Below, in pieces: positions 28,381 through 47,214 of a stretch of 55,171 bases of DNA. The stretch's first letter is position 1, and every line of letters starts with the position of its first letter. The notes beneath the pieces are model-generated. The model was not told the DNA's origin. It ran no database searches and worked only from the letters and a program-made list of their open reading frames with translations. The position numbers and the translations under genes were made by a program. Location of the stretch: positions 1-55,171 of the forward strand of contig JAFQXL010000002.1 of NCBI GenBank assembly GCA_017406985.1, in the 5' to 3' direction. The stretch comes from Candidatus Saccharimonadota bacterium. Lineage in GTDB: Bacteria > Patescibacteriota > Saccharimonadia > Saccharimonadales > Saccharimonadaceae.

Positions 28381-28902
28381 TATTAGTAACTTTTTTTGTT
28401 TTGAAAGGATTTTCGACTCTCTTTGTGGAGGTATAAGAGCCGAATATGAAAGAAGAAAAACTACTCAATCTACTTTTAGGTCAGATGGTAAATCGAGCCA
28501 ATGTGCTCCCACCGCACGCGGAACTATATTTATTTTTAAAAATAAGTCAAGCATAAGCGAGCGAAAATTTCTTGATATTCTTAATTTAACAGATAGAAAT
28601 GTTGTAAATATTACAATAAAATCAGCTTAAAGCTAACGCTTATGGAAATATGCTTATACTTCAAAAATGCAACTTTTTTAATGTCCACCCCTGTTATTTT
28701 ATGAAAATAAGGTGCATTTTTTGATTTTAAGGCTCAAAATTAACAGGGGTAGCACATAAGCGTTTTGAGGCTAAAATTGTCCGTTAAAGTTATAAAACAA
28801 AACGCTCATGTATAAATTTTTATAATATTTTTTTGCACAAAAGTAAAAAATTGTGGTAGAATAGTAATAGAAGTTCAAAAATTTCAGTACTAGATGAGAT
28901 AT
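28381..28902 (+). other. gene-poor gap with repeated words and a possible decayed small ORF
   Basis: No convincing gene is present. One frame is open from 28373 to 28630 (about 85 codons) but has no ATG, GTG or TTG start, and an overlapping 36-codon ATG frame (28446-28556) lacks a well-placed ribosome-binding site. This may be a gene remnant. The gap also holds GCATAAGCG (28551), CGCTTATG (28637), ACCCCTGTTA (28687), TAACAGGGGT (28741) and ACATAAGCG (28754), words that recur in other gaps of this window. Confidence 0.4.
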
Positions 28903-36132: not shown

Positions 36133-36240
36133 TAATTCGCAGAGAAAATCACTCAGATTGGTGTTTTCTCGGTTCGAAGCGCTATTACTGATAGAGCGAG
36201 AACCGAAAAACGCCGAGCTGAGTGATTTTAATGCGAATTA
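36133..36240 (+). repeat. long hairpin element, copy A
   Basis: The whole 108-nt segment is one imperfect hairpin: TAATTCGCA with TGCGAATTA, AAAATCACTCAG with CTGAGTGATTTT, then GGTGTTTT/AAAAACGCC, CGGTTC/GAACCG and GCGCTAT/ATAGAGC around a TACTG loop. It sits directly after tRNA-Phe, and its last bases include the stop codon of the FtsL-like gene on the other strand. It matches the hairpin at 54416-54496 with many paired compensatory changes. Confidence 0.75.
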
Positions 36241-36639
36241 TTCCGCCGTTCCCTCCGCAGTCGCACTCTCCATCCTCGCCGCGACCGCCGAATTATTCGA
36301 ATTTGCGATTGAAGTTAAGCGCGCTTTCTCGACCGCTAAATCTTCCTTTCTCGCTTCTAAATCATCAATCTCCGCGTTAAGCCCGGAAAGCTGATAGTCA
36401 TACCCTGTCGCCTTTGCGCTCTGGTCGACATAAATTAGTCCAAGATTTAAGAGTAACATGAAGAAAACTCCGATTAGAGCGAACTTCCCAATTCGCCCGT
36501 TTCCGGAAAATCTAACCGTGTTTCGATTTCGAGAAAAACCTGTCGAAAACGCACCAAAATCTCCGTATGAACGGCCAGAGTTTTCCCGCCATTCTTGAGC
36601 CGATGCTCTTCGTTTTGCTGTATAGGTTCCGTTTCGCAT
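36238..36639 (-). CDS. FtsL/DivIC-like cell-division protein
   Basis: A 133-aa bitopic protein with a cytosolic N-terminus rich in Arg/Ser, one membrane segment (51-70) and a predicted coiled coil (about 82-112, 'LNAEIDDLEARKEDLAVEKA'). Size, topology and position downstream of rsmH match FtsL, which recruits the septal synthase with FtsQ and DivIC. Sequence alone is too weak to separate FtsL from DivIC. A 21-codon frame and hairpins separate it from rsmH. Its stop codon lies in the 108-nt hairpin element. Confidence 0.7.
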   Translation of the reverse strand: MRNGTYTAKRRASAQEWRENSGRSYGDFGAFSTGFSRNRNTVRFSGNGRIGKFALIGVFFMLLLNLGLIYVDQSAKATGYDYQLSGLNAEIDDLEARKEDLAVEKARLTSIANSNNSAVAARMESATAEGTAE

Positions 36640-36890
36640 TTTTCCTCGCTTAATTTTTATTTTTATATCAATGTCCCCAAACGGGGTAAAATTTCTTATT
36701 CATAGGCCGAGGTACTCTTCTAGCCGCACCACCGCATCGCTAGAAGGAGCCCTCGGGAAGGTCATATATTTTAAAACACTCTATAAACTCAAAAGGAGTG
36801 GGTCGAACTTTGTTCGTCTCCGAACGCCGTCCGATATTAGGGCGCCAAAAATAAGGATAAAGACGCCCTAGGGTAACTACAGTTCAAAGA
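36640..36890 (-). other. structured leader between micro-ORF and FtsL-like gene
   Basis: No gene seen. On the minus strand, a TAGGGCGTC/GGCGCCCTA hairpin (36838-36870) directly follows the micro-ORF, and a second stem, TTCTAGC with GCTAGAAG, lies near 36715-36745 within CCTC/GAGG flanks. The arrangement could control read-through into the FtsL-like gene. Confidence 0.45.
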
Positions 36891-36956
36891 TTAACGGAAG
36901 TGAACTTTGATCTGCTCAGCACGAGAGTTGCTTTTAACTACGATTTGCTTTGGCAT
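36891..36956 (-). CDS. 21-aa basic micro-ORF
   Basis: ATG at 36956 with a strong GGAGG site 5 nt upstream, encoding 21 residues (starts 'MPKQIVVKSN', ends 'VHFR') and stopping at TAA. The peptide is basic, without a signal sequence. Codons (GCT, CGT, CAG, ATC) differ somewhat from neighbouring genes. It lies between rsmH and the FtsL-like gene and is followed at once by a stable hairpin. It could be a leader peptide or a small protein; no family was recognised. Confidence 0.5.
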   Translation of the reverse strand: MPKQIVVKSNSRAEQIKVHFR

Positions 36957-37038
36957 ATTGCCTCCTTTTATTTTTTATTTTTCGATGGGCGACGCCCTTC
37001 GGAAAAAATTTTTAATTTTTATTTTATCAATCCAAAGC

Positions 37039-37938
37039 CTAGCTGCGCTTTTTATAAACTCGAAGTTTAGCGCTAGAAGCTCTGGGGTTGATAACTAACT
37101 CCAGTTCTCCGGCAGTTATTGGACTTTTAGTTAAGACTTCAAACTCAGATTCATATCCAAGTGAAGAAACCTCTTTAAAATACCTCTTTACTAGTCTATC
37201 TTCAAGCGAGTGGAAAGTAATTATTCCGACTCTCCCGCCCGGGTTTAAAAGTTTCGGAAGAAGAGGTAAAGTCTTTTCGATAAGAGAAAGTTCGTCGTTT
37301 ACGGCGATTCTAATCGCCTGGAAAACTTGCGTCGCCGGATGTTTCCCGTGCCAACGTGTTCCTTTTGATTTCGAAATCCGCCCGTTAAACGCAATTGCGT
37401 TCGCTAATTCTAAAGTCGAATTAAACGGTCGTCCTTCGACGATAATTCTCGCATGCTTCTTCGCGAGTCCAGGTTTCTCTTCGCCATATTTAACGAAAAT
37501 CTCCTCTAGTTCCCTCGGATGCCACTTATTGATAATAGAAGAAGCGTCTAATTTCTGGCTCTTATCCATTCTCATATCAAGCGGACCGTCAGAAAGGAAC
37601 GAAAAACCTCGCTCAGCTTTATCGATCTGCGGAGATGAAACTCCAAAATCCGCCAAAATCACATCAAAAGTCTTTCCACACTCGATTAAGAGTTGCGTAG
37701 CGTTATAAAAGTTATCGTGGATTATCTGAACTTCACTCGAAACGTTCTTCGTTAGATAATCGATTGAAAATTCGTCTCTATCTACTAGAGTCGCACCTTT
37801 ATAATTCTGCGTAACCGCCAAAATCTTCTTCGCATGTCCTGCATATCCTGCCGTGAGATCTAAATATGTCTCACCCAGCTTCGGTTGCAAAAATGCGACG
37901 ACTTCCGATAATAATACTGGTTTATGGAGTTCTTCCAT
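37039..37938 (-). CDS. rsmH: 16S rRNA m4C1402 methyltransferase
   Basis: A 299-aa SAM-dependent enzyme (MraW) that methylates C1402 of 16S rRNA. Evident are 'HKPVLLSEVVAFL', the SAM loop 'YLDLTAGYAGHAKKIL' (usually DGTxGxGGH), 'DVILADFGVSSPQIDKAERG', 'GPLDMRMD', 'ATQVFQAIRIAVNDEL' and 'IITFHSLEDRLVKRYF'. TGATATAAT lies 7 nt before the start. As in other dcw clusters it precedes the FtsL-like gene, but here the genes ordinarily next to them are separated from it by the DGR. Confidence 0.96.
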   Translation of the reverse strand: MEELHKPVLLSEVVAFLQPKLGETYLDLTAGYAGHAKKILAVTQNYKGATLVDRDEFSIDYLTKNVSSEVQIIHDNFYNATQLLIECGKTFDVILADFGVSSPQIDKAERGFSFLSDGPLDMRMDKSQKLDASSIINKWHPRELEEIFVKYGEEKPGLAKKHARIIVEGRPFNSTLELANAIAFNGRISKSKGTRWHGKHPATQVFQAIRIAVNDELSLIEKTLPLLPKLLNPGGRVGIITFHSLEDRLVKRYFKEVSSLGYESEFEVLTKSPITAGELELVINPRASSAKLRVYKKRS

Positions 37939-38506
37939 ACCTTATATTATATCATAAGGTGTTGTTGTTTGAGCCCGGTCAACTAGAAACTTTAACATTT
38001 TTGTTTTTATATAATTTTTGTTTAAGTTCTATACAATAAATACTATAATTTTCTGCCCGCTTGCGCTTTAGACTTATGGATTATAGTAGTTGAGAGATTA
38101 TTGTGTAGGGTTGTCTTTTGAGTTAATTGGGAGGTTTTTTGTGATAGATGTACTGAGGGCTTTGATGACGTGTTTCCTCAAACGCGTGTAAAAGCTCCTA
38201 GTTGACCGACCTCAAACGCTTTTAATGTGCCAAAAAGAATTTCCTTTCACCCCGTCAATTCTTTTTCGACAGACGAATAACTTCGTAGTCTAGCTCGTTT
38301 TGGTTATTCTTCGCCTGTTCTTTCATGTTTTATTCTTTTTGTTTGTGGTTTTTATTAGGTTGTCCACTAACTTAAGTATAAACATTTTCAAAAACTTTTG
38401 CAAGTACTTTTTTCAAGATTTTTTAACATTTTTCCTTCCCCCTCCAACTTTTCCACATCTACCCCTGTTCGCTTGTGGAAATTTCCCAAAATCAAGTTCA
38501 TTCTGC
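37939..38506 (+). other. gene-free AT-rich gap with long-range inverted repeat
   Basis: No gene seen. GGTCAACTAG near 37977 and CTAGTTGACC near 38193 are perfect complements about 205 nt apart. ACTATAAT and ATTATAGT pair inside them. CCTCAAACGC occurs twice (near 38177 and 38211) as a direct repeat. ACCCCTGTTC at 38461 is close to the recurrent ACCCCTGTTA word. The segment lies between rsmH and the DGR and may contain an RNA or the scar of an insertion. Confidence 0.45.
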
Positions 38507-38534
38507 AAATTTGTGGCAGATTTGCCACAAATTT
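38507..38534. terminator. 12-bp perfect stem, terminator or operator
   Basis: AAATTTGTGGCA and TGCCACAAATTT pair around GATT and are followed by TT and then TAATAA on the plus strand. The symmetric AT-rich base would allow termination in both directions. It lies just before the putative template-RNA promoter. Confidence 0.5.
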
Positions 38535-38551
38535 TTAATAACCATAAGCGT

Positions 38552-38557
38552 TATAAT
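38552..38557 (+). promoter_or_regulatory. candidate -10 box for the DGR template RNA
   Basis: TATAAT in CATAAGCGTTATAATATA. No good -35 hexamer or TG extension is seen, so strength is uncertain. It is the best -10 match on the strand from which the template RNA must be read, about 180 nt before the TR. Confidence 0.4.
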
Positions 38558-38563
38558 ATATGT

Positions 38564-38737
38564 GGGGGAACTCGCCCAGGAGCTATAGACACCTCCTCGC
38601 CGAGTAGAAAAGGCTCAAAAGCGCCCTATCTTATATACTTTTATGCGATAGGCAAATACTAATACTTATTATCTACGGATAATCTGTGATTTTAAAGACG
38701 CTTTCACTTTTTGCGGGAAGTTAATTCTGCCAGCGTA
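38564..38737 (+). ncRNA. structured leader of the DGR template RNA
   Basis: Three local hairpins precede the TR: ACTCG...CGAGT enclosing AGGAG/CTCCT (38569-38604), CCTATC/GATAGG (38623-38652) and TTATC-TACG-GATAA (near 38669-38683). They lie between the candidate promoter and the TR, where other DGRs carry structured RNA needed for reverse transcription. No open frame exists here. Assignment to the DGR is by position. Confidence 0.5.
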
Positions 38738-38917
38738 TTGTTTACTCTGGGAATCACAACAACAGTGGTACCAATGTGAACAACCAGGGTTCCAACGGCA
38801 ACTGGTGGTCATCTACAGCGAACAATACCACCAACCGCTACAGAACATACATCAACTCTAGCAACGCGAATGCCACCAACAACAACAATCGCAGGAACGG
38901 GAACTCCGTCCGCTGCG
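38738..38917 (+). repeat. DGR template repeat (TR)
   Basis: 180 bp aligning without gaps to the variable repeat (reverse strand 41146-40967). There are 21 differences, all at adenines of the TR (10 A>G, 9 A>T, 2 A>C), and none at the roughly 120 other bases. In the frame of the target, 16 codons differ: 15 are AAC/AAT in the TR and one is AGA. The last 14 bases before the end are identical and GC-rich, as expected of the initiation region. The TR lies 39 nt past the RT stop codon and on the opposite strand to RT and target. It reads as an open frame only because it copies coding sequence. Confidence 0.95.
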
Positions 38918-38956
38918 CTATCTTCTCCCAGCGCCTTTACTTTCCCCCTTTAAAGT

Positions 38957-40069
38957 TTAAAACCGATATTCATTCCCGAATTTATCAAACATCTTTTTAG
39001 TAAACTTTTTACTATTCATATGTTTCATATGCCCTAAATGTGAAGTAATGCTTTCTACCGAATTATACCCAATCCCGAACTTATATAACCCCTTATAAAA
39101 GTTTCGTTTTAATCTCTTTCCGGGGACAATCGAATTAGGATAAACTACTACTCCCATAAACGGAACTCCTTTCTTGACTTCTTGAATATACCTCTTTTTC
39201 GGATGTAGGGTTAAGCCGATTCTCTTCAAAAATTCGTCAATCTTTTTTAAATCTTCTAAAGCCTTTTTATATTCTTCACCCGATACAACAATATAAAAAT
39301 CGTCGACATATCTTCCATAATGTTTATATCCGAGTTCTATCGTTACATATCTGTCCAACAAGTCCAAATAAATATTCGACAAAAGTTGACTCGAAAGATT
39401 CCCAATTACGATTCCCTGCCCAGGCGGCTGACAAAATAGACTCTTATTGTCCGGCAATCCATCCCATTCATGAACCGAACCTCTCCGTCGAACTTCCGCC
39501 GTCGGATCGTCAAAGATAATTTCTCGCCAAAGATACTTAATTAAATTTCTCTTCCATTCTAGTGCTTCCCCTTTAAACTGTTGGTCTAATCCCCAGCAAG
39601 CTCGCTCGAAAATCGCTTTTCTCTGTAAACTCATAAAATACCCTTGTATATCTAGTTTTATTACATATGCTTCTTTTGTCCCGTGTCTTGACACTGAATT
39701 TACATGGTGGCGTAACCTATCTATCGCAAAGAACGTCCCTTTGTCCTTTCGACAAGAATACGAGTCATAAATAAAATGTCTGTCCCACCATTCCGCAACC
39801 TGATTATAAATAAAATGATGGACAACTCTATCTCGGAAAGGCGCCGCAAAAATCTCTCTCATAACCGGATCATAAGTAATAAATGCAATTCCTCTTCCAG
39901 GTTTATATCGATGATTCATAATGTCATCTCGAAGTGTCATTAAATTTTCCATATAATTTAACTCAAAATTATGCTCGTCTGAAGTCGAACGTTTATTCTT
40001 CCTCGCATCAAGATAAGCATAAAATAATTCCCTTAATAGCCACTCGTCTATTTTATTCTCGACAGACAT
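38957..40069 (-). CDS. DGR reverse transcriptase
   Basis: A 370-aa reverse transcriptase. The catalytic motifs are Asp140 in 'VIKLDIQGYF' and 'YVDD' (254-257) in 'HYGRYVDDFYIVVSG'. Motif 4 reads 'GIVIGNLSSQLLSNIYL', the IGxxxSQ form that marks DGR enzymes in place of the QGxxxSP of group II intron and retroviral types. No maturase or endonuclease domain follows, and the length is typical for DGRs. It copies TR RNA with errors at adenines to produce cDNA that replaces the VR. Its start overlaps the upstream accessory gene by 22 nt. Confidence 0.95.
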   Translation of the reverse strand: MSVENKIDEWLLRELFYAYLDARKNKRSTSDEHNFELNYMENLMTLRDDIMNHRYKPGRGIAFITYDPVMREIFAAPFRDRVVHHFIYNQVAEWWDRHFIYDSYSCRKDKGTFFAIDRLRHHVNSVSRHGTKEAYVIKLDIQGYFMSLQRKAIFERACWGLDQQFKGEALEWKRNLIKYLWREIIFDDPTAEVRRRGSVHEWDGLPDNKSLFCQPPGQGIVIGNLSSQLLSNIYLDLLDRYVTIELGYKHYGRYVDDFYIVVSGEEYKKALEDLKKIDEFLKRIGLTLHPKKRYIQEVKKGVPFMGVVVYPNSIVPGKRLKRNFYKGLYKFGIGYNSVESITSHLGHMKHMNSKKFTKKMFDKFGNEYRF

Positions 40070-40851
40070 CTTTCCGCATCCTTTCTTAAATTTTCAATTG
40101 ATTTTAAAAGCCTAAAAATTCTCTCCGGCTCGGCTAACCTTAACTCGGAGATAATAATCGTTTGAGACGTCATCCATTTTGTATTAACTAAAATCTTTTC
40201 TAAATATTCCTTCTCTTCCATTCCTACTCCGTTCGCCATCATACTATATTCCCTAACCATCCAACTCGCTCTCTCAAGCATCGGATTTGCCACGACCTCT
40301 CGAATATACGGCTCAATTCGTTTTGTATATGTATATAGCGTTTCAAGCAGTTCTCTTTCGGATTTAAAGAGTAACGGGTGAATCTGTTTTGGAAGAACGA
40401 TACTGTTAATTTTTTCCCACTCAAGCTCTCTCGCCTTCTTTAGTCTCTCAATATCGTCTTTTGTGTATCTCTTACCAATATTAAAAATTTTATATTCTTC
40501 TTGCGTATCGAGATAATAAATTTTATTCGCTTCAAGTTTTGCCTCAAGGTCATAAATACTTTTTATATTTACTACACCCTCTTCCGAACGACATTCAAAA
40601 TCGCTATCTTCCATCAGTTTTGAAGCATATTTTATTCTCTTTGCAATGTCATAGTGAAAAATTAAAGCCGAATTCCCGATCATCTTCCACCAGTTTTTCT
40701 TTTCGTGGATTACAAAAAGTTTCGAAAAATTTTCTTTTTCGCGCTCAAGCGCGAAGGCTTTAATTTTAAAATATTCCTCTCGCTGTTTTCTACCTTTTTC
40801 GCCGGCTTTAGTTCTTTCTGTTTTCGAAGCTCTATTTTTCGCTTTCTCCAT
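40048..40851 (-). CDS. DGR accessory protein, Avd-like C-terminus, enlarged
   Basis: A 267-aa protein from the ATG at 40851 (a TTG three codons upstream is less likely). The N-terminal 60 residues are very Lys/Arg/Glu-rich, the middle is mixed, and the last about 110 residues form long helices ('LLETLYTYTKRIEPYIREVV' through 'LRLAEPERIFRLLKSIENLR'). In other DGRs Avd is a basic four-helix-bundle protein of about 120 residues that binds RT and template RNA. Position between target and RT and the helical C-terminus suggest the same role with an added N-terminal region. The family call is tentative, as no Avd signature was recognised with certainty. Confidence 0.65.
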   Translation of the reverse strand: MEKAKNRASKTERTKAGEKGRKQREEYFKIKAFALEREKENFSKLFVIHEKKNWWKMIGNSALIFHYDIAKRIKYASKLMEDSDFECRSEEGVVNIKSIYDLEAKLEANKIYYLDTQEEYKIFNIGKRYTKDDIERLKKARELEWEKINSIVLPKQIHPLLFKSERELLETLYTYTKRIEPYIREVVANPMLERASWMVREYSMMANGVGMEEKEYLEKILVNTKWMTSQTIIISELRLAEPERIFRLLKSIENLRKDAERCLSRIK

Positions 40852-40941
40852 TTTATGCAACTTTCTTTTTATTTTTCTTTAGAACAGTCTCCTGCGTCTT
40901 TACATTTTCCGTTTGAGCCCCAGGCTCTGGGAGGAAGATAG

Positions 40942-40964
40942 GCGCGCTAGCATAGCTAGCGCGC
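40942..40964 (-). other. hairpin/cruciform next to the DGR variable repeat
   Basis: GCGCGCTAGC and GCTAGCGCGC form a perfect 10-bp stem around a 3-nt loop, starting 2 bp past the end of the VR and spanning the target stop codon. In the Bordetella phage DGR such a DNA hairpin just downstream of the VR is needed for efficient target recognition. The TR has no equivalent. Confidence 0.85.
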
Positions 40965-43034
40965 GACGCAGCGGACGGAGTACCCGTTCCTGCGATAGTT
41001 GCCGAGGGTGGCATCCGCGTTGCTAGAGGCGATGTATGTACTGTAGCGGTAGGTGGTACCGCTCGCTGTAGATGACCACCAGTAGCCGTTGGAACCCTGG
41101 TTGTACACAACGGTACCACTGCTGCTGTGATACCCAGAGTAAACAAAGTTAAGTGGAGAGCTTCGCATAATCGTCGAGCCAGCGGCGTCATTAGTAACGT
41201 TATAAGCCGAAAGAAGCGCAGCATATTCAGATTGCGACGGGAGTTTCCAGTTTAGAGGACAGACCGAATGAGACGCTTCAGTCGAGTTGCTCGAACCGGT
41301 AACCGTTCCCGCAGAAGCCGCAGCATAGTTATAATAAACCCCATAGCTCGTATTACCCGTATCATAAACCATTGCCGAATCATAACTTGAAGTCCAAGAA
41401 GAGATTGATGCCGGAAGAGCAAAGTCAGATGAAACATCCGAATCGGCACTCGTAAGCGTTCTCGAACCGATAAGCCTTAAGTTATCCGTCATCCAACACT
41501 TTCCATCTTCCGCCTTTAAGACGGTATAAGACTTACTATCGCGCGAGTCGGTTAAGGATTTCGTCGTCCCCTTAGCAGTCGCCGAACAAATCGAACTTGT
41601 CATAGCCTGCATTGTCGAGATACTCGAAATATCTTGTGCGGCCGTCGTAAACGTAAACGAACAAGTCGAAGCAGAATCCTTTGAGTTATTATTTATCGTT
41701 ACTGTCTGTGCCGAAGTCGCGCTCGTTCCCGTAGTCATACCTGTAATCGTATAGCCGTTCGTACAAGAACCTGCCGAAAGATAATATCCACTACTCGGAG
41801 TTACAGTTAAGGTTGTCGTCCCGCCATAGCTAACAGTCGCCGAAGACGTTACCGAGCCGCCAGTCCCTGCGCTCCCGGTTACGGTATAAGTTTTTGCTGT
41901 CCACTTCGCATACCAAGTTGAGTTCGCCGTATACCCCTTCGCCGCGTTAATTCCGTCCGTAGTCGCATAGCCACTCGCTGTAATATATTGTGTTCCCGTT
42001 CCGTCGCTCCCAGAATAATACCCTCCGAACGTATAGCCCGTTTTTACCGGAATCGTAATCGCATTCGCTGAAGTCGTCATCACATTAGCGCGTGCAGAAT
42101 CGAGATACAAATTAGTATTATAAGTAGTATAAACTGTCGCTGTGTTTTGAGTTGTCGCAGAGTTTCCGTTTAAGGTAATCGAGTAATTATTCGCGGTCCA
42201 CTGCGCCGTAAGCGTATCCGTTATAAGGTTACTCGGGTTGACATCGACGCTCGTCTCGTCTCCAGTAAAGCTATAAGAACCGTTTGTCCACCCAGCAAAG
42301 GTATAACCGGTTTTTTGAGGCTTGTAGTTAGAGAGGTTGATTAGAGAGCCGTAATCGAGAGTCTGGTCGTTATAATTATAGGAAGAATTAATAATAGTTC
42401 CGCCGTCAGGATCAAATTTTAGAGTATAGGCATCACAGGTCGACGGAAGCGAAACGGTATAGACGACGTCGTTCGTATAATTTCCAGACGGAAGGTCGCT
42501 ATTAGTCTTTACTCCGTAGACGACGTCGAAATATGAAGAAGAAGCCGAGCTTGTGCTAAAAAGGGCTACCGGGGACGCTGAAGCGGGCACGGGCGAAAAG
42601 CTATTTCCACTATCTTTCGAAAAACCCCAAGTGTTATCCGTCAGCGCGGTCCCGGTGCTAATTGTAGGAATGGTTTTTGTACCAGAATCAGACCCGGTAC
42701 GCGTCAAACTTGTACTTGAACTAGAAGAAGCAAGCGTCACACTAAAGCCAGAAGGACAAGTATTTGTATAGTTAATGCGGTTTGTAGAGGTATAAACAGC
42801 CTGCGAAGCGGTAGGAGTAACCGGAATAGAAACAGTATCGTCGCTAGAAATCGACGCAGAATAAGAACCAACAGAAACAGAAGCGGTAGTTGTTGTCGCT
42901 TCAGACGGTAAATAACCTGCGATAATACAGGTAATTACAAATGTAGATATTAAAAAGAATGAAAAGATAGCGAGGGCAGTCATAACCCTAGTTATCGAAA
43001 AAGAGTTTATTTTTGTGCGTGGAAAGGCTTTCAT
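40956..43034 (-). CDS. DGR target: secreted InlB-repeat/FISUMP (C-type-lectin-like) protein
   Basis: A 692-aa protein. It has an N-terminal signal/anchor segment (about 17-40), a Ser/Thr-rich beta domain with the 'NTWGFSKD' turn shared with the 24611-25327 protein, and three Listeria-Bacteroides (InlB B) repeats at about 205-385 ('GYTFAGWTNGSYSF', 'GYTFGGYYSGSDGTG', each followed by an AQW/AKW strand). A third type of beta repeat follows, then a FISUMP-type domain from about residue 475 ('CWMTDNLRLIG', 'CPLNWKLPSQSEYAAL', 'GYWWSSTASG', ending 'YSVRCVAR'). VR residues are 630-690; diversified positions are mainly Tyr, Ser and Gly. It probably displays variable ligand-binding surfaces outside the cell. 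A TGATATAAT promoter, a 55-nt leader and an AGGAG site precede it. Confidence 0.93.
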   Translation of the reverse strand: MKAFPRTKINSFSITRVMTALAIFSFFLISTFVITCIIAGYLPSEATTTTASVSVGSYSASISSDDTVSIPVTPTASQAVYTSTNRINYTNTCPSGFSVTLASSSSSTSLTRTGSDSGTKTIPTISTGTALTDNTWGFSKDSGNSFSPVPASASPVALFSTSSASSSYFDVVYGVKTNSDLPSGNYTNDVVYTVSLPSTCDAYTLKFDPDGGTIINSSYNYNDQTLDYGSLINLSNYKPQKTGYTFAGWTNGSYSFTGDETSVDVNPSNLITDTLTAQWTANNYSITLNGNSATTQNTATVYTTYNTNLYLDSARANVMTTSANAITIPVKTGYTFGGYYSGSDGTGTQYITASGYATTDGINAAKGYTANSTWYAKWTAKTYTVTGSAGTGGSVTSSATVSYGGTTTLTVTPSSGYYLSAGSCTNGYTITGMTTGTSATSAQTVTINNNSKDSASTCSFTFTTAAQDISSISTMQAMTSSICSATAKGTTKSLTDSRDSKSYTVLKAEDGKCWMTDNLRLIGSRTLTSADSDVSSDFALPASISSWTSSYDSAMVYDTGNTSYGVYYNYAAASAGTVTGSSNSTEASHSVCPLNWKLPSQSEYAALLSAYNVTNDAAGSTIMRSSPLNFVYSGYHSSSGTVVYNQGSNGYWWSSTASGTTYRYSTYIASSNADATLGNYRRNGYSVRCVAR
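40967..41146 (-). repeat. DGR variable repeat (VR)
   Basis: The last 60 or so codons of the target. It aligns over 180 bp with the TR, with changes only at TR adenines. Trp-Trp, Asn-Gly and the terminal Arg-Cys codons are invariant because they contain no template adenine or an unchanged one. It ends 2 bp before the 10-bp hairpin. Confidence 0.95.
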
Positions 43035-43095
43035 ATTACTCCTATTAGTTGTTATTTAAAGGTTCGTTTAGTTTTATTCCTCCATACTTGTTATG

Positions 43096-43101
43096 ATTAT
43101 A
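43096..43101 (-). promoter_or_regulatory. extended -10 promoter of the DGR target
   Basis: Minus strand TGATATAAT. The start would be near 43089, leaving a 55-nt leader that has a translatable ATG-GAG-GAA-TAA and then the real AGGAG site. The target therefore has its own promoter and does not depend on the murein genes upstream. Confidence 0.7.
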
Positions 43102-43149
43102 TCACAAACCCAATTTTTTTTACAAGTTTTTTCTAAAAAATTGTTATGT

Positions 43150-43683
43150 TTATTTATAATACGCTCTGCCCGCTATCCTAATATCAACATACGAAGCGGT
43201 CTTCCCTCTCTCATCTAAATATTTAATCATTCTCGTCGCATCTTCCGCCGTCTCCGCCGCGCTCCTATCTATCTGACACTTATAAAATTCCGTTCTCCCC
43301 TCGAGATAAATATCTACTTCACGCGTTTTCCCCGCCGGAACAATCGCTTTTATAACCTTATATCCATAATCTTTAAAATCCGCTTCCGCCATTCCGACGA
43401 ACTCTTTAATTTTATCTGTTACATATCCCGTTCCGCCTTCGTCGACAATCTCGACCGTCGGTGTATATTCTACTGTCTCCGTCGGCGTCGTCTCCGCTTT
43501 TTTATGTTTATAAAGCCCCGTGACAATAATTCCTATCGTTATAACGATAATAAGCGCTAAAATCACGAAGAAAATCGCAATCGAAAATTTCTTGCGTTTC
43601 TCCTCCTTTTTTCGCGACATCATTCGCTCGGATTCAGAAATCGCTTTCTCGCGCTCACCCTTTATCGTCTTTCCGATTCGCAT
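43150..43683 (-). CDS. FtsQ/DivIB-like membrane protein
   Basis: A 177-aa protein with a basic cytosolic N-terminus, one membrane segment (about 34-57), a Thr/Glu linker and an extracellular domain ending in 'YVDIRIAGRAYYK', which resembles the C-terminal beta strand of FtsQ/DivIB ('DLRxxxRxYxK'). It is shorter than usual FtsQ, and no clear POTRA domain precedes the strand region. Its ATG directly abuts the murG stop (TAG-ATG), the position FtsQ takes in many dcw clusters. It is the last murein/division gene before the DGR. Confidence 0.55.
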   Translation of the reverse strand: MRIGKTIKGEREKAISESERMMSRKKEEKRKKFSIAIFFVILALIIVITIGIIVTGLYKHKKAETTPTETVEYTPTVEIVDEGGTGYVTDKIKEFVGMAEADFKDYGYKVIKAIVPAGKTREVDIYLEGRTEFYKCQIDRSAAETAEDATRMIKYLDERGKTASYVDIRIAGRAYYK

Positions 43684-44919
43684 CTATTCTACCCCGACCT
43701 CAATCAAAATATCCGCCAGTCTCTCCGCCGCGTCGGTTTTCGCCTCTACGTGAAGATTAGACGCTAGCTCTTCCCTCTTTTTCGGGCTTCTAATTAACGT
43801 TTTTATCGCCTCGAGTAGTTTTTCTGGCTTCTCCATCATTTCGCTATCCGGAACAACCATAACCGCTCCGAGTCGCTCTAATCTTTCCGCGTTTCTAGAC
43901 TGATGATCCCCAGGTAGTTTTTCATACGGAACTAAAATTACCGGCTTCGATAAAACCGCCAGCTCCGCAATCGTCGTCGCCCCCGCTCGCGAAACGACTA
44001 CGTCCGCCGCCCCGAGCAGTTCTTGCATCGTCGGCGAAAAGTTCCAAAGTCTAAAGTTCGACTGTAACTTTGCCTTATCCCATTCTTCATATTTCTTTAG
44101 ATCGACCATGTCTTCATAGTGTTTTCTTCCGGCGACTAGCCCGACCGACGAAAACTTTAAAATCTCTGGTAAAATCTCTCTAGTCGCTAGATTTATATGT
44201 TCCGCCCCTTGCGAACCGCCCGTAATCATTACTAACGGCTTCTCCGGATTAAACCCAGCAGAACGCTTTAATTGTTTCTGAGACGACGCCGAAGTTTTCT
44301 TATATTCCGCCGCAATCGGAATCCCTACCCATACCCAGTTTTCTCGTCCGGCAATTCCCTTATCGAACGGCATCCCCATCGCTACGACTCTTGCCCGTTT
44401 CATTAAAATTCGGTTCGCTAGTCCCGCGACTGCGTCCGACTCGTGAATTACATAAGGGATTTTAAAGAGTTTCGCGATTATCCCGACCGGAAGCCCGACA
44501 AATCCGCCTTTTAGAAAAATCACGTCTGGACGATTCGCCTTCGAGACTAATCTAAAGAAAGACTGAAAAAGCCCGCCGAAAAAACCAAAAAACCCAAAAA
44601 GGTTTCCAAAAGTTACGTCTCTTAAGGTTTTTGCTCCGTCCGCAAAATAATTTTCTAAAGTTAATCCTGAATATCTATGAAATTTCCCTGCCGAGACTTT
44701 TCGGACTTTAATATAAGGATTCTTCTTCGAGCCGAGTTTATCTTCCTCTCCCCAATGAACTCCTATTTCCGTTGTAATCTTTACAACATTTTTATAATAT
44801 TTCTTATCCGTCCAAAACTCAATTTTCGTCCTCGGGCGTTTTTCTAAAACTTCTCGAACTACCGCTACCGCCGGCGTAATATGTCCTCCAGAACCGCCCC
44901 CTACAACTAGGATTTTCAT
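43684..44919 (-). CDS. murG: UDP-GlcNAc:lipid I GlcNAc transferase
   Basis: A 411-aa GT-B glycosyltransferase making lipid II at the inner face of the membrane. It has the Gly-rich loop 'VVGGGSGGHITPAVAVV', 'VIFLKGGFVGLPVGI', 'YVIHESDAVAGLANRIL', 'LVMITGGSQGAEHIN', 'VVSRAGATTIAELAVLSKP' and 'DHQSRNAERL'. It is about 50 residues longer than E. coli MurG, with an extra hydrophobic segment near residues 105-125 ('FGFFGFFGGLFQSFF') that may strengthen membrane binding. It overlaps ftsW by 4 nt. Confidence 0.95.
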   Translation of the reverse strand: MKILVVGGGSGGHITPAVAVVREVLEKRPRTKIEFWTDKKYYKNVVKITTEIGVHWGEEDKLGSKKNPYIKVRKVSAGKFHRYSGLTLENYFADGAKTLRDVTFGNLFGFFGFFGGLFQSFFRLVSKANRPDVIFLKGGFVGLPVGIIAKLFKIPYVIHESDAVAGLANRILMKRARVVAMGMPFDKGIAGRENWVWVGIPIAAEYKKTSASSQKQLKRSAGFNPEKPLVMITGGSQGAEHINLATREILPEILKFSSVGLVAGRKHYEDMVDLKKYEEWDKAKLQSNFRLWNFSPTMQELLGAADVVVSRAGATTIAELAVLSKPVILVPYEKLPGDHQSRNAERLERLGAVMVVPDSEMMEKPEKLLEAIKTLIRSPKKREELASNLHVEAKTDAAERLADILIEVGVE

Positions 44920-46151
44920 CTTCTCCTCCTATAGGTATAATTATTTGTCTCAAATCTCGAAACCGTTGTCTTCTCCGGTTCTCTCTCATTATCGATAACT
45001 ACTTCTCTTGAAGTATATCCTGAAAGCTGATAAACTAGCCCGAGCGCTCCCGCCACCGCCATCATACTCGTCCCACCGTAGCTAAGAAGCGGTAAAGTAA
45101 TCCCGGTAAGCGGCGTAATCCCCGTCATCGACATAATATTTACCACAAGATGTGTCATTATCCAAGCGAACACCCCGACGACGATTAAACTATTTTGAAA
45201 GTCGCGCGAATAATCCGAAACCTTTAAAACTCTAAATAATAGCCAAGCGAACAGGAATAATAAAGCGACTAGCCCGACAAACCCGAACATCTCCCCTAAA
45301 ATCGCGAAGACCGAATCGTTAATCGATTCTGGAAGATAACCCGTCGCTTGAACCGAGTTCCCGATTCCCACCCCGAACAGCCCTCCTGTCCCGATCGCGA
45401 TTAGCGCATTTTCGATATGATATGCGTCACCATCTTCCTCTTCTTCATTCACCGAAAAACCGAGATAAGTAAAGAGGCGTTCGCGCCTATGTCCCGACGT
45501 CATAATCGCTCCTACGCCTAAAATTAAAACCGCTAGAACGATTAGAAGAAAGCTCTTAACCGAAACTCCCGAAACGAATAAAATCGAAAGCGCAATCGTT
45601 ATAATCGGTAGTCCCGAGCCTAAATCTTTCTGAATTACGACGACGAATAAAAGCGATAGCCCGACCGATAAAACATATCTCGTTAAGAACTTCATATTTT
45701 TCAGTAGTTCCCCACCCTCGGCTTTATATTTCGAAAAAATCGTCGCGAGATAAAGAATAATCGAGAATTTTAAAAACTCCGCCGGCTGGACCGAGATTCC
45801 CATAATCGAGAACCATCTACAAGCCCCTAGCTCACATCTCGCAATCGGTAGATTCGTAAACTGCGCTACCGCAAGTATTGCACAAAGCCCGAGCGAAATT
45901 ATTAAAGCAGCTTTCGCATATTTTACAATTCTCTGATATTCGATTTTATTAAATAAATAGAACACTCCGAGCGCAAGCCCGACCGATAAAAGCTGATGCA
46001 GAAAGAAATAACTATCCGAATAGTTCGAGCCATAAGTCGCGTTTAAAAAGTTTGCCCTTGTCGGACCAATCGTATACATAACAAGGAGACCTACAATCAT
46101 TAAAATAACCGTAAGCACTATAATCGAGACGTCTCCTTTATGTTTTCGCAA
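44916..46151 (-). CDS. ftsW: septal peptidoglycan polymerase FtsW (SEDS family)
   Basis: A 411-aa SEDS glycosyltransferase with about ten membrane helices. Family segments include 'QPAEFLKFSIILYLA', 'VVVIQKDLGSGLPI', the catalytic-loop region 'GNSVQATGYLPESINDSVFA' and 'GITLPLLSYGGTSMM'. It polymerises lipid II with the transpeptidase encoded upstream. The start is TTG with AGGAGG close upstream. The charged C-terminal tail is cytosolic. Confidence 0.95.
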   Translation of the reverse strand: MRKHKGDVSIIVLTVILMIVGLLVMYTIGPTRANFLNATYGSNYSDSYFFLHQLLSVGLALGVFYLFNKIEYQRIVKYAKAALIISLGLCAILAVAQFTNLPIARCELGACRWFSIMGISVQPAEFLKFSIILYLATIFSKYKAEGGELLKNMKFLTRYVLSVGLSLLFVVVIQKDLGSGLPIITIALSILFVSGVSVKSFLLIVLAVLILGVGAIMTSGHRRERLFTYLGFSVNEEEEDGDAYHIENALIAIGTGGLFGVGIGNSVQATGYLPESINDSVFAILGEMFGFVGLVALLFLFAWLLFRVLKVSDYSRDFQNSLIVVGVFAWIMTHLVVNIMSMTGITPLTGITLPLLSYGGTSMMAVAGALGLVYQLSGYTSREVVIDNEREPEKTTVSRFETNNYTYRRRR

Positions 46152-46170
46152 CTTACCTCCTTTTTAAAAT

Positions 46171-47214
46171 CTAGCCTTTAGACACAATTCCGCTTGTCAT
46201 TGCTACGAATACTCCGATAATCGCAAACACCCCCGCAATAATCCAAAAGCGCATCACGATTTTCGCTTCTCCCCAGCCGATCGCTTCCAGATGATGGTGA
46301 ATCGGCGCCGAAATAAAAATCTTTCGATGGAAAAACTTTTTCGAAATCATTTGAATTAAGCTTGAGCCCGCCTCGACGACGAGCAAAACTCCGATAATCG
46401 GAAGAAGAAATAGTGAATTCGTCATCATTGCGACTACCCCAAGTCCAGAGCCTAACGCGAACGAGCCAACATCCCCCATCATAAACCTCGCCGGCGGAAC
46501 ATTAAACCAGACGTATGAAAGGAGCCATCCTACGACCGTCATACAAAACGCAAATAGCTGAACCTGTCCGCGAAATAGCGCGATTATTCCGAACGCCCCA
46601 TAGGCGATCATCATTAGCCCTCCGGCCAGCCCGTCTAGCCCGTCCGAAATATTTGTCGCGTTCGACGTCGCGACGACCGAAAACGCGAACACTAGCATCA
46701 TTAACGCTCCGCCGATATTTATATCCCCGACATACGGAATATGGATTCCTGTCCAGCCTAATTTATAAACAAAATACCAGCCAAGCCCTAGTCCAATCAT
46801 TGTAATCATAAAGAACTTTACCGGCGCGCGCAGTCCCGCCGCGCCTTTTCCCGTTCCGAACACGTTAATTAAATCGTCAATAAATCCGACCACTCCCCCG
46901 CCTAAAAATCCTGCAAGCGGAAGCCAAGTTTCCGCTCTATTCCAGTTACAAGCATAAGTAACAACAAGAACAACAATAATCCCGACCAACCCCGCCATCG
47001 TCGGAAAAACACGTTTAAATTTATGCGCATGAAGTTTCGTCATAATCGGGAGCGCATCCCCCGTCGCAGTCGTCTTTTTTTGTTTCTTCCACCATTTATT
47101 TTTATACGCAAAATGTGTATAAACCGGCGTTAAAAACATTGCCAGTAAAAAGGCTCCGAGCGCTAAGATTAGCCCAAAGAACGTTTCTTGCGAAGTTGAG
47201 CCACTATTAAACAT
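46171..47214 (-). CDS. mraY: phospho-MurNAc-pentapeptide transferase
   Basis: A 347-aa polytopic enzyme transferring MurNAc-pentapeptide to undecaprenyl phosphate to form lipid I. Motifs: 'FIDDLINVFGTGKGAAGLR' (cytosolic Asp pair), 'ATSNATNISDGLDGLAGG', 'FMMGDVGSFALG' and 'APIHHHLEAIGWGEAKIVMR'. Its own TGATACAAT ends 6 nt before the ATG, so it can be transcribed as a leaderless message independently of the transpeptidase gene. Confidence 0.97.
   Translation of the reverse strand: MFNSGSTSQETFFGLILALGAFLLAMFLTPVYTHFAYKNKWWKKQKKTTATGDALPIMTKLHAHKFKRVFPTMAGLVGIIVVLVVTYACNWNRAETWLPLAGFLGGGVVGFIDDLINVFGTGKGAAGLRAPVKFFMITMIGLGLGWYFVYKLGWTGIHIPYVGDINIGGALMMLVFAFSVVATSNATNISDGLDGLAGGLMMIAYGAFGIIALFRGQVQLFAFCMTVVGWLLSYVWFNVPPARFMMGDVGSFALGSGLGVVAMMTNSLFLLPIIGVLLVVEAGSSLIQMISKKFFHRKIFISAPIHHHLEAIGWGEAKIVMRFWIIAGVFAIIGVFVAMTSGIVSKG

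Follow-up and report, generated by a model that had tools for sequence, protein, structure and literature searches.

Two questions are raised by the window analysed here: whether a reverse transcriptase (RT) gene, a pair of closely matching repeats and a gene for a secreted protein in a Saccharibacterium make up a diversity-generating retroelement (DGR), and how the template of such an element is supplied when it lies on the strand opposite to the RT. The window is the whole stretch of 55,171 nucleotides (positions 1-55,171 of contig JAFQXL010000002.1, assembly GCA_017406985.1, Candidatus Saccharimonadota bacterium), and the features of the locus are collected in Table 1. In the established DGR mechanism, a template repeat (TR) is copied by adenine-directed mutagenic reverse transcription, and a variable repeat (VR) is then replaced. 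An earlier note, made from the sequence of the window, had described a complete DGR, with target, accessory gene, RT and TR all present, that probably varies a ligand-binding surface of a secreted InlB-repeat/FISUMP protein in a small episymbiont-like bacterium. Our analysis confirms a genuine DGR in a Saccharibacterium: the parts of the locus are intact, and TR/VR statistics, RT phylogeny and relatives among ruminant-gut Saccharibacteria all support the description. Beyond this, we consider it likely that the element represents a functional-looking, Saccharibacteria-specific DGR that combines a TR RNA gene on the opposite strand, bearing a structured 5′ domain, with a two-domain accessory protein and an RT.

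Table 1. Positions, strands and supporting evidence for the parts of the DGR locus in the window
Feature	Position	Strand	Remarks
TATAAT, candidate -10 box for separate transcription of the TR RNA	38552-38557	+	exact motif
Conserved leader RNA domain	38617-38705	+	held-out covariance-model match, E 0.009 in 779 kb; covariation
TR (template repeat)	38738-38917	+	opposite strand to RT; ends ~40 bp from RT stop codon
DGR RT, 370 aa	38957-40069	-	RVT_1, PHROG 1423, RT tree
Accessory gene, 270 aa, two domains	40048-40860	-	overlaps RT start by 22 bp
Accessory C-terminal domain, residues 158-270	40051-40389	-	Avd-like four-helix bundle (hhalign and Foldseek)
Accessory N-terminal domain, residues 20-130	40471-40803	-	MutS-domain-I-like fold (AF2 and VIA-align)
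IMH-like segment, CTATCTTCCTCCCAGAGCC	40923-40941	-	3′ of hairpin; by sequence
10-bp perfect inverted repeat, 3-nt loop	40942-40964		GCGCGCTAGC-ATA-GCTAGCGCGC
Target gene, 692 aa	40956-43034	-	PF09603, PF09479 and TIGR02145 matches
VR (variable repeat)	40967-41146	-	target codons ~630-689; gap-free match to TR

The adenine-specific pattern that the earlier note had read from the two repeats was borne out in full. TR and VR align over 180 bp with 0 gaps and 21 mismatches, all 21 of which fall at TR adenines (60 adenines in the TR); the chance of 21/21 mismatches at A is about 6e-12 (hypergeometric). The changes from TR to VR comprise 10 A>G, 9 A>T and 2 A>C. Nearly all altered codons had been said to be AAC or AAT, and this holds for 15 of 16, each of them able to encode 15 amino acids but never a stop. 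The odd one out is AGA at codon 665, from which TGA is reachable. A search with the TR through the 731-kb genome returned the VR and two trivial short matches, nothing else, with one of the short matches adjoining the RT of a second DGR in the same genome.

The concentration of changed adenines in AAC/AAT codons (20/40, versus 1/20 elsewhere, p 0.0005) might also be read as the product of a sequence duplication without mutagenic retrohoming, in which selection created the bias towards A. This reading is contradicted clade-wide by the 51 TR/VR pairs that we pooled, in which 1049 of 1090 mismatches are at A; the A-specific differences extend to third codon positions and noncoding parts, and a DGR RT adjoins the repeats, leaving duplication exceedingly improbable. 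First and second positions of AAY codons were changed in 62% and 37% of cases, versus 15% and 12% elsewhere, suggesting that AAY codons are favoured by selection or by RT context.

The VR sits in the C-terminal FISUMP domain of the target, where the Fib_succ_major match lies. Matches to Fib_succ_major (PF09603, 7.1e-13), Flg_new (List_Bact_rpt; PF09479, 6e-8) and TIGR02145 agree with the earlier reading of the target as a secreted InlB-repeat/FISUMP protein, and its N-terminus, read by eye, has a membrane/secretion segment followed by an InlB-type List_Bact repeat. Judged from its sequence, the FISUMP variable domain is C-type-lectin-like, and the varied surface may serve in ligand binding. 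The target at locus L037, with no obvious secretion signal, has a long non-repeat N-terminus and the same SVRCVA motif at its end, and is possibly a cytosolic DGR target.

Directly 3′ of the VR, a perfect inverted repeat overlaps the target stop codon and is followed by an IMH-like segment that almost equals the 3′ flank of the TR (38918-38935, CTATCTTCTCCCAGCGCC). The TR lacks this hairpin, and the VR side carries a 25-bp hairpin insertion relative to the TR, before the IMH-like segment. Hairpins of at least 7 bp at the VR end were found at 13 of 47 clade loci, versus 1.6 expected. Such an insertion would fit a decayed element, in which the hairpin parts the IMH from the repeat and the TR/VR differences are the record of past mutagenesis in a DGR now defunct. 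We regard this as very unlikely, given that the RT, accessory and target reading frames are intact, the VR is open, all parts are kept, and there are zero non-A mismatches between TR and VR. From these sequence features the window DGR is probably active.

The RT carries both motifs named in the earlier note, IGNLSSQ and YVDD, and matches RVT_1 and PHROG 1423 (4.7e-79). Its membership of the DGR clade, on which the earlier note had made its reading depend, was tested with a tree (IQ-TREE, PMSF LG+C20) that had group II introns as outgroup. The window RT falls inside the DGR RTs, where it belongs to a Saccharibacteria clade of 36 rows supported at 100/100 and sister to the canonical phage DGRs. 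Inverted DGRs of gammaproteobacteria (L161, L164, L166) form a separate 100/100 clade, with canonical DGRs between the two. Matching RTs were present in 39 of 100 related genomes, nearly all in the window's genus and frequently with two or three copies each, and RT relatives include Saccharibacteria from sheep and goat ileum. Ruminant-gut Saccharibacteria, with genomes of roughly 0.7 Mb, often have one to four DGRs per genome. A second inverted-type DGR, L035, is found in the window's own genome (G000): its RT (C3:63981-65060) is 56% identical to that of the window, and it comes with a separate TR/VR pair and a FISUMP-like target. RT matches at L054, L087, L088 and L089 (genomes G040, G014, G013 and G057) break near query residues 166-176 with the frame still open, which points to some 30 or more inserted residues in these RTs. 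The window DGR lies between rsmH/mraW and murG-ftsW-mraY in the dcw cell-wall/division cluster (36238-47214), and the same dcw genes flank at least seven other clade loci (L054, L060, L062, L059, L064, L087, L088), which suggests an old chromosomal site.

In the window, the TR is on the plus strand, and the RT, accessory gene, VR and target are all on the minus strand. Scanning for A-specific repeats gave 47 independent clade loci with a TR, and at 46 of these the TR is opposite to the RT strand. At 44 of the 46 inverted loci the RT gene has the TR immediately on its 3′ side; at L053 and L061 the inverted TR lies beyond the accessory gene. L084 is the sole clade locus with TR and RT on the same strand, and the leader covariance model R2, described below, has no match there. 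Within the inverted clade, the target is found on either strand, usually that of the RT. As a control we took 80 relatives from IMG/VR, among which a TR was detectable in 72, on the RT strand in 72/72 and upstream in 71; in the nearest RT outgroups, from other Saccharibacteria families (L264-L267), the TR is likewise on the RT strand. Since canonical phage DGRs separate the gammaproteobacterial inverted DGRs from this clade in the tree, the inversion in the Saccharibacteria clade probably arose apart from theirs. At four distant Saccharibacteria DGRs (L278 and L280-L282; RT 28-31% identical), the TR is on the opposite strand at the 5′ side of the RT, apparently another inversion.

The inverted TR is preceded by a conserved RNA fold, which in the window ends 33 nt 5′ of the TR and consists of P1, hairpin P2 and a long hairpin P3 with a UACG cap, after which P1 closes. 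Folding of the 215 nt before the TR gave a recurring arrangement, a P1 that encloses P2 (1 nt after P1) and a long P3, with an additional small hairpin between P2 and P3 in some leaders. A descriptor of this arrangement, tuned on some of the same loci, was found in 16/40 leaders versus 2.6 +/- 1.6 in dinucleotide-shuffled sequences, and hairpins capped by a Y-A-N-G tetraloop in 13/41 versus 0.8 +/- 0.8. An initial, looser descriptor (32/40 versus about 22 shuffled) was tightened. Conservation could not be read from a MAFFT alignment of the full set of leaders; the descriptor succeeded instead, together with a covariance model (R1) that was built on three loci and found others at the expected place. 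In a 12-sequence alignment (A9), 93% of cells are paired and two-sided change occurs in 22/23 pairs (0/500 shuffles), with a covariation of 0.78 versus 0.24 when shuffled and 0.06-0.16 with slid partners; because A9 had been fitted to the structure of the model, its P1 and P3 counts lean towards it. Searched over 779 kb, model R2 matched almost exclusively TR leaders on the TR strand, including the held-out window, L077, L065, L088, L050 and L044. Its best off-target match (window 28665-28719, minus strand, E 0.14) is probably due to chance. Among extracted leaders, 25/44 were matched at E<0.03, 25/25 on the TR strand, and ~40% of leaders had no clear covariance-model match. Taken by itself, the window leader has no unusual stability (z -0.81), and Rfam covariance models (e.g. 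RT-n motifs) gave no credible match to it or to 20 leaders. A whole-genome search with R2 gave no matches even in the window's own genome, where a match is known, indicating that the first pass of such a search misses matches of this kind.

The exact TATAAT of Table 1 has counterparts 130-300 nt before the TR in 20/43 leaders, versus 3.05 expected from mononucleotide shuffles; a consensus scan found no full sigma-70 promoter and no terminator on the plus strand near the window leader. Leader and TR together look like an RNA gene in its own right, which has a structured domain ahead of the TR and may be transcribed separately. An ordinary DGR whose TR happens to be inverted, with a leader fold unrelated to DGR function (it might, for instance, serve the convergent RT gene as attenuator or terminator), is in our judgement unlikely. 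Inverted DGRs are indeed known (PMC3521204), and terminator-like hairpins occur near the 3′ end of the TR, although at part of the loci only, and a terminator after the TR was dropped as a general feature. The fold itself, however, covaries, lies 5′ of the TR on the TR strand in every one of the 25 covariance-model matches, and stays with the TR at L061, where the TR is not 3′ of the RT.

The proposed RNA gene is accompanied by a two-domain accessory protein, homologues of which lie beside nearly every clade RT, with the reading frame called beside the RT spanning only the Avd part at L066 and L070. The whole accessory protein has no assignment in Pfam, NCBIfam or PHROG. Aligned with a profile of 11 Avds (hhalign), its C-terminal domain covered the whole profile (probability 90.5, E 1.3e-6). 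The model of this domain, a four-helix bundle, matched 4dwl/8ub7 in Foldseek with TMt 0.78-0.79, and a structural comparison gave Z 12.6 to 8ub7_C. It resembles Avd both from BPP-1 and as seen in the DGR RNP, though helical bundles reach high values by chance. By profile and model comparison, then, the C-terminal domain is Avd-like. The N-terminal domain, modelled alone with AF2 (pLDDT 81.7), had MutS/MSH domain I in all of the top 16 rows of VIA-align (Z 6.7-8.1); Foldseek alone ranked RRMs and others first. When MutS domain I was sought by sequence alone, the outcome was negative or weak, the best member matching PF01624 (MutS_I) at E 0.071. The domain is predicted to be MutS-domain-I-like, a relation that rests on fold (Z up to 8.1). 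A search of 25 related genomes for a MutS that could serve as a local control found none. Accessories of both kinds, MSL (MutS_I, PF01624) and Avd (PF22296), are known from DGRs (PMC10053308), and both folds are recognised in the window accessory, joined in one protein.

A model can be proposed from these observations. The TR would be carried on its own RNA gene, transcribed independently from the strand opposite the accessory-RT operon, and accessory protein and RT would be co-translated. The two would bind the leader fold, such that the leader-TR RNA is recognised via its 5′ domain; the RT would copy the TR with errors at adenines, the cDNA would replace the VR in the secreted FISUMP protein, and the stem-loop beside the VR may help targeting. 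For the stricter form of the model, in which an autonomous noncoding RNA gene provides the template and a three- or four-way-junction domain at its 5′ end, not a 3′ spacer, recruits the RT and the MutS-I/Avd fusion, our confidence is evenly balanced.

Comparison with known systems places the window DGR near the BPP-1 element (brt, Avd/bbp7, TR, Mtd VR), with which it shares A-specific TR-to-VR differences, an Avd-like accessory, an RT of the same clade (28% identity) and an inverted repeat just 3′ of the VR. In contrast to BPP-1, the window TR is on the opposite strand and 3′ of the RT, the accessory has an extra MutS-I-like domain, the target is a secreted FISUMP protein, and the structured RNA lies 5′ of the TR, whereas the functional spacer of BPP-1 is 3′ of the TR (PMC12875486). 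No 3′ spacer resembling that of BPP-1 is obvious in the present type. Inverted DGRs of Vibrio, Shewanella and Photobacterium (DiGReF Group 4), to which L161, L164 and L166 are alike, have TR, VR and target together on the strand that does not carry the RT (PMC3521204). The TR is opposite the RT in both types, but the window type differs in RT clade and accessory, and its target is usually on the RT strand, the TR alone being inverted. Patescibacteria DGR clade 2 (Roux 2021, PMC8144416) consists, like the window DGR, of cellular DGRs in CPR hosts. In the open-access literature we found no description of the present inverted-TR/leader arrangement, which is weak evidence.

A separate, structured template RNA gene would mean that a DGR need not supply its template together with its enzyme. 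To our knowledge, the DGR mechanism is known from a single phage element, whose template RNA, spacer and RT are transcribed as one unit. If the template RNA is indeed autonomous, the Saccharibacteria DGRs would assemble their RNP and prime cDNA on a different architecture, and the leader-TR module could change place and orientation with respect to the protein genes. The leader covariation data hint at what the RT/accessory complex may recognise, and the arrangement suggests that templates for targeted mutagenesis could be supplied in trans. For the organisms themselves, the collection indicates that ruminant-gut Saccharibacteria, with their tiny genomes, often keep DGRs aimed at surface proteins, several of them in the cell-wall/division cluster.
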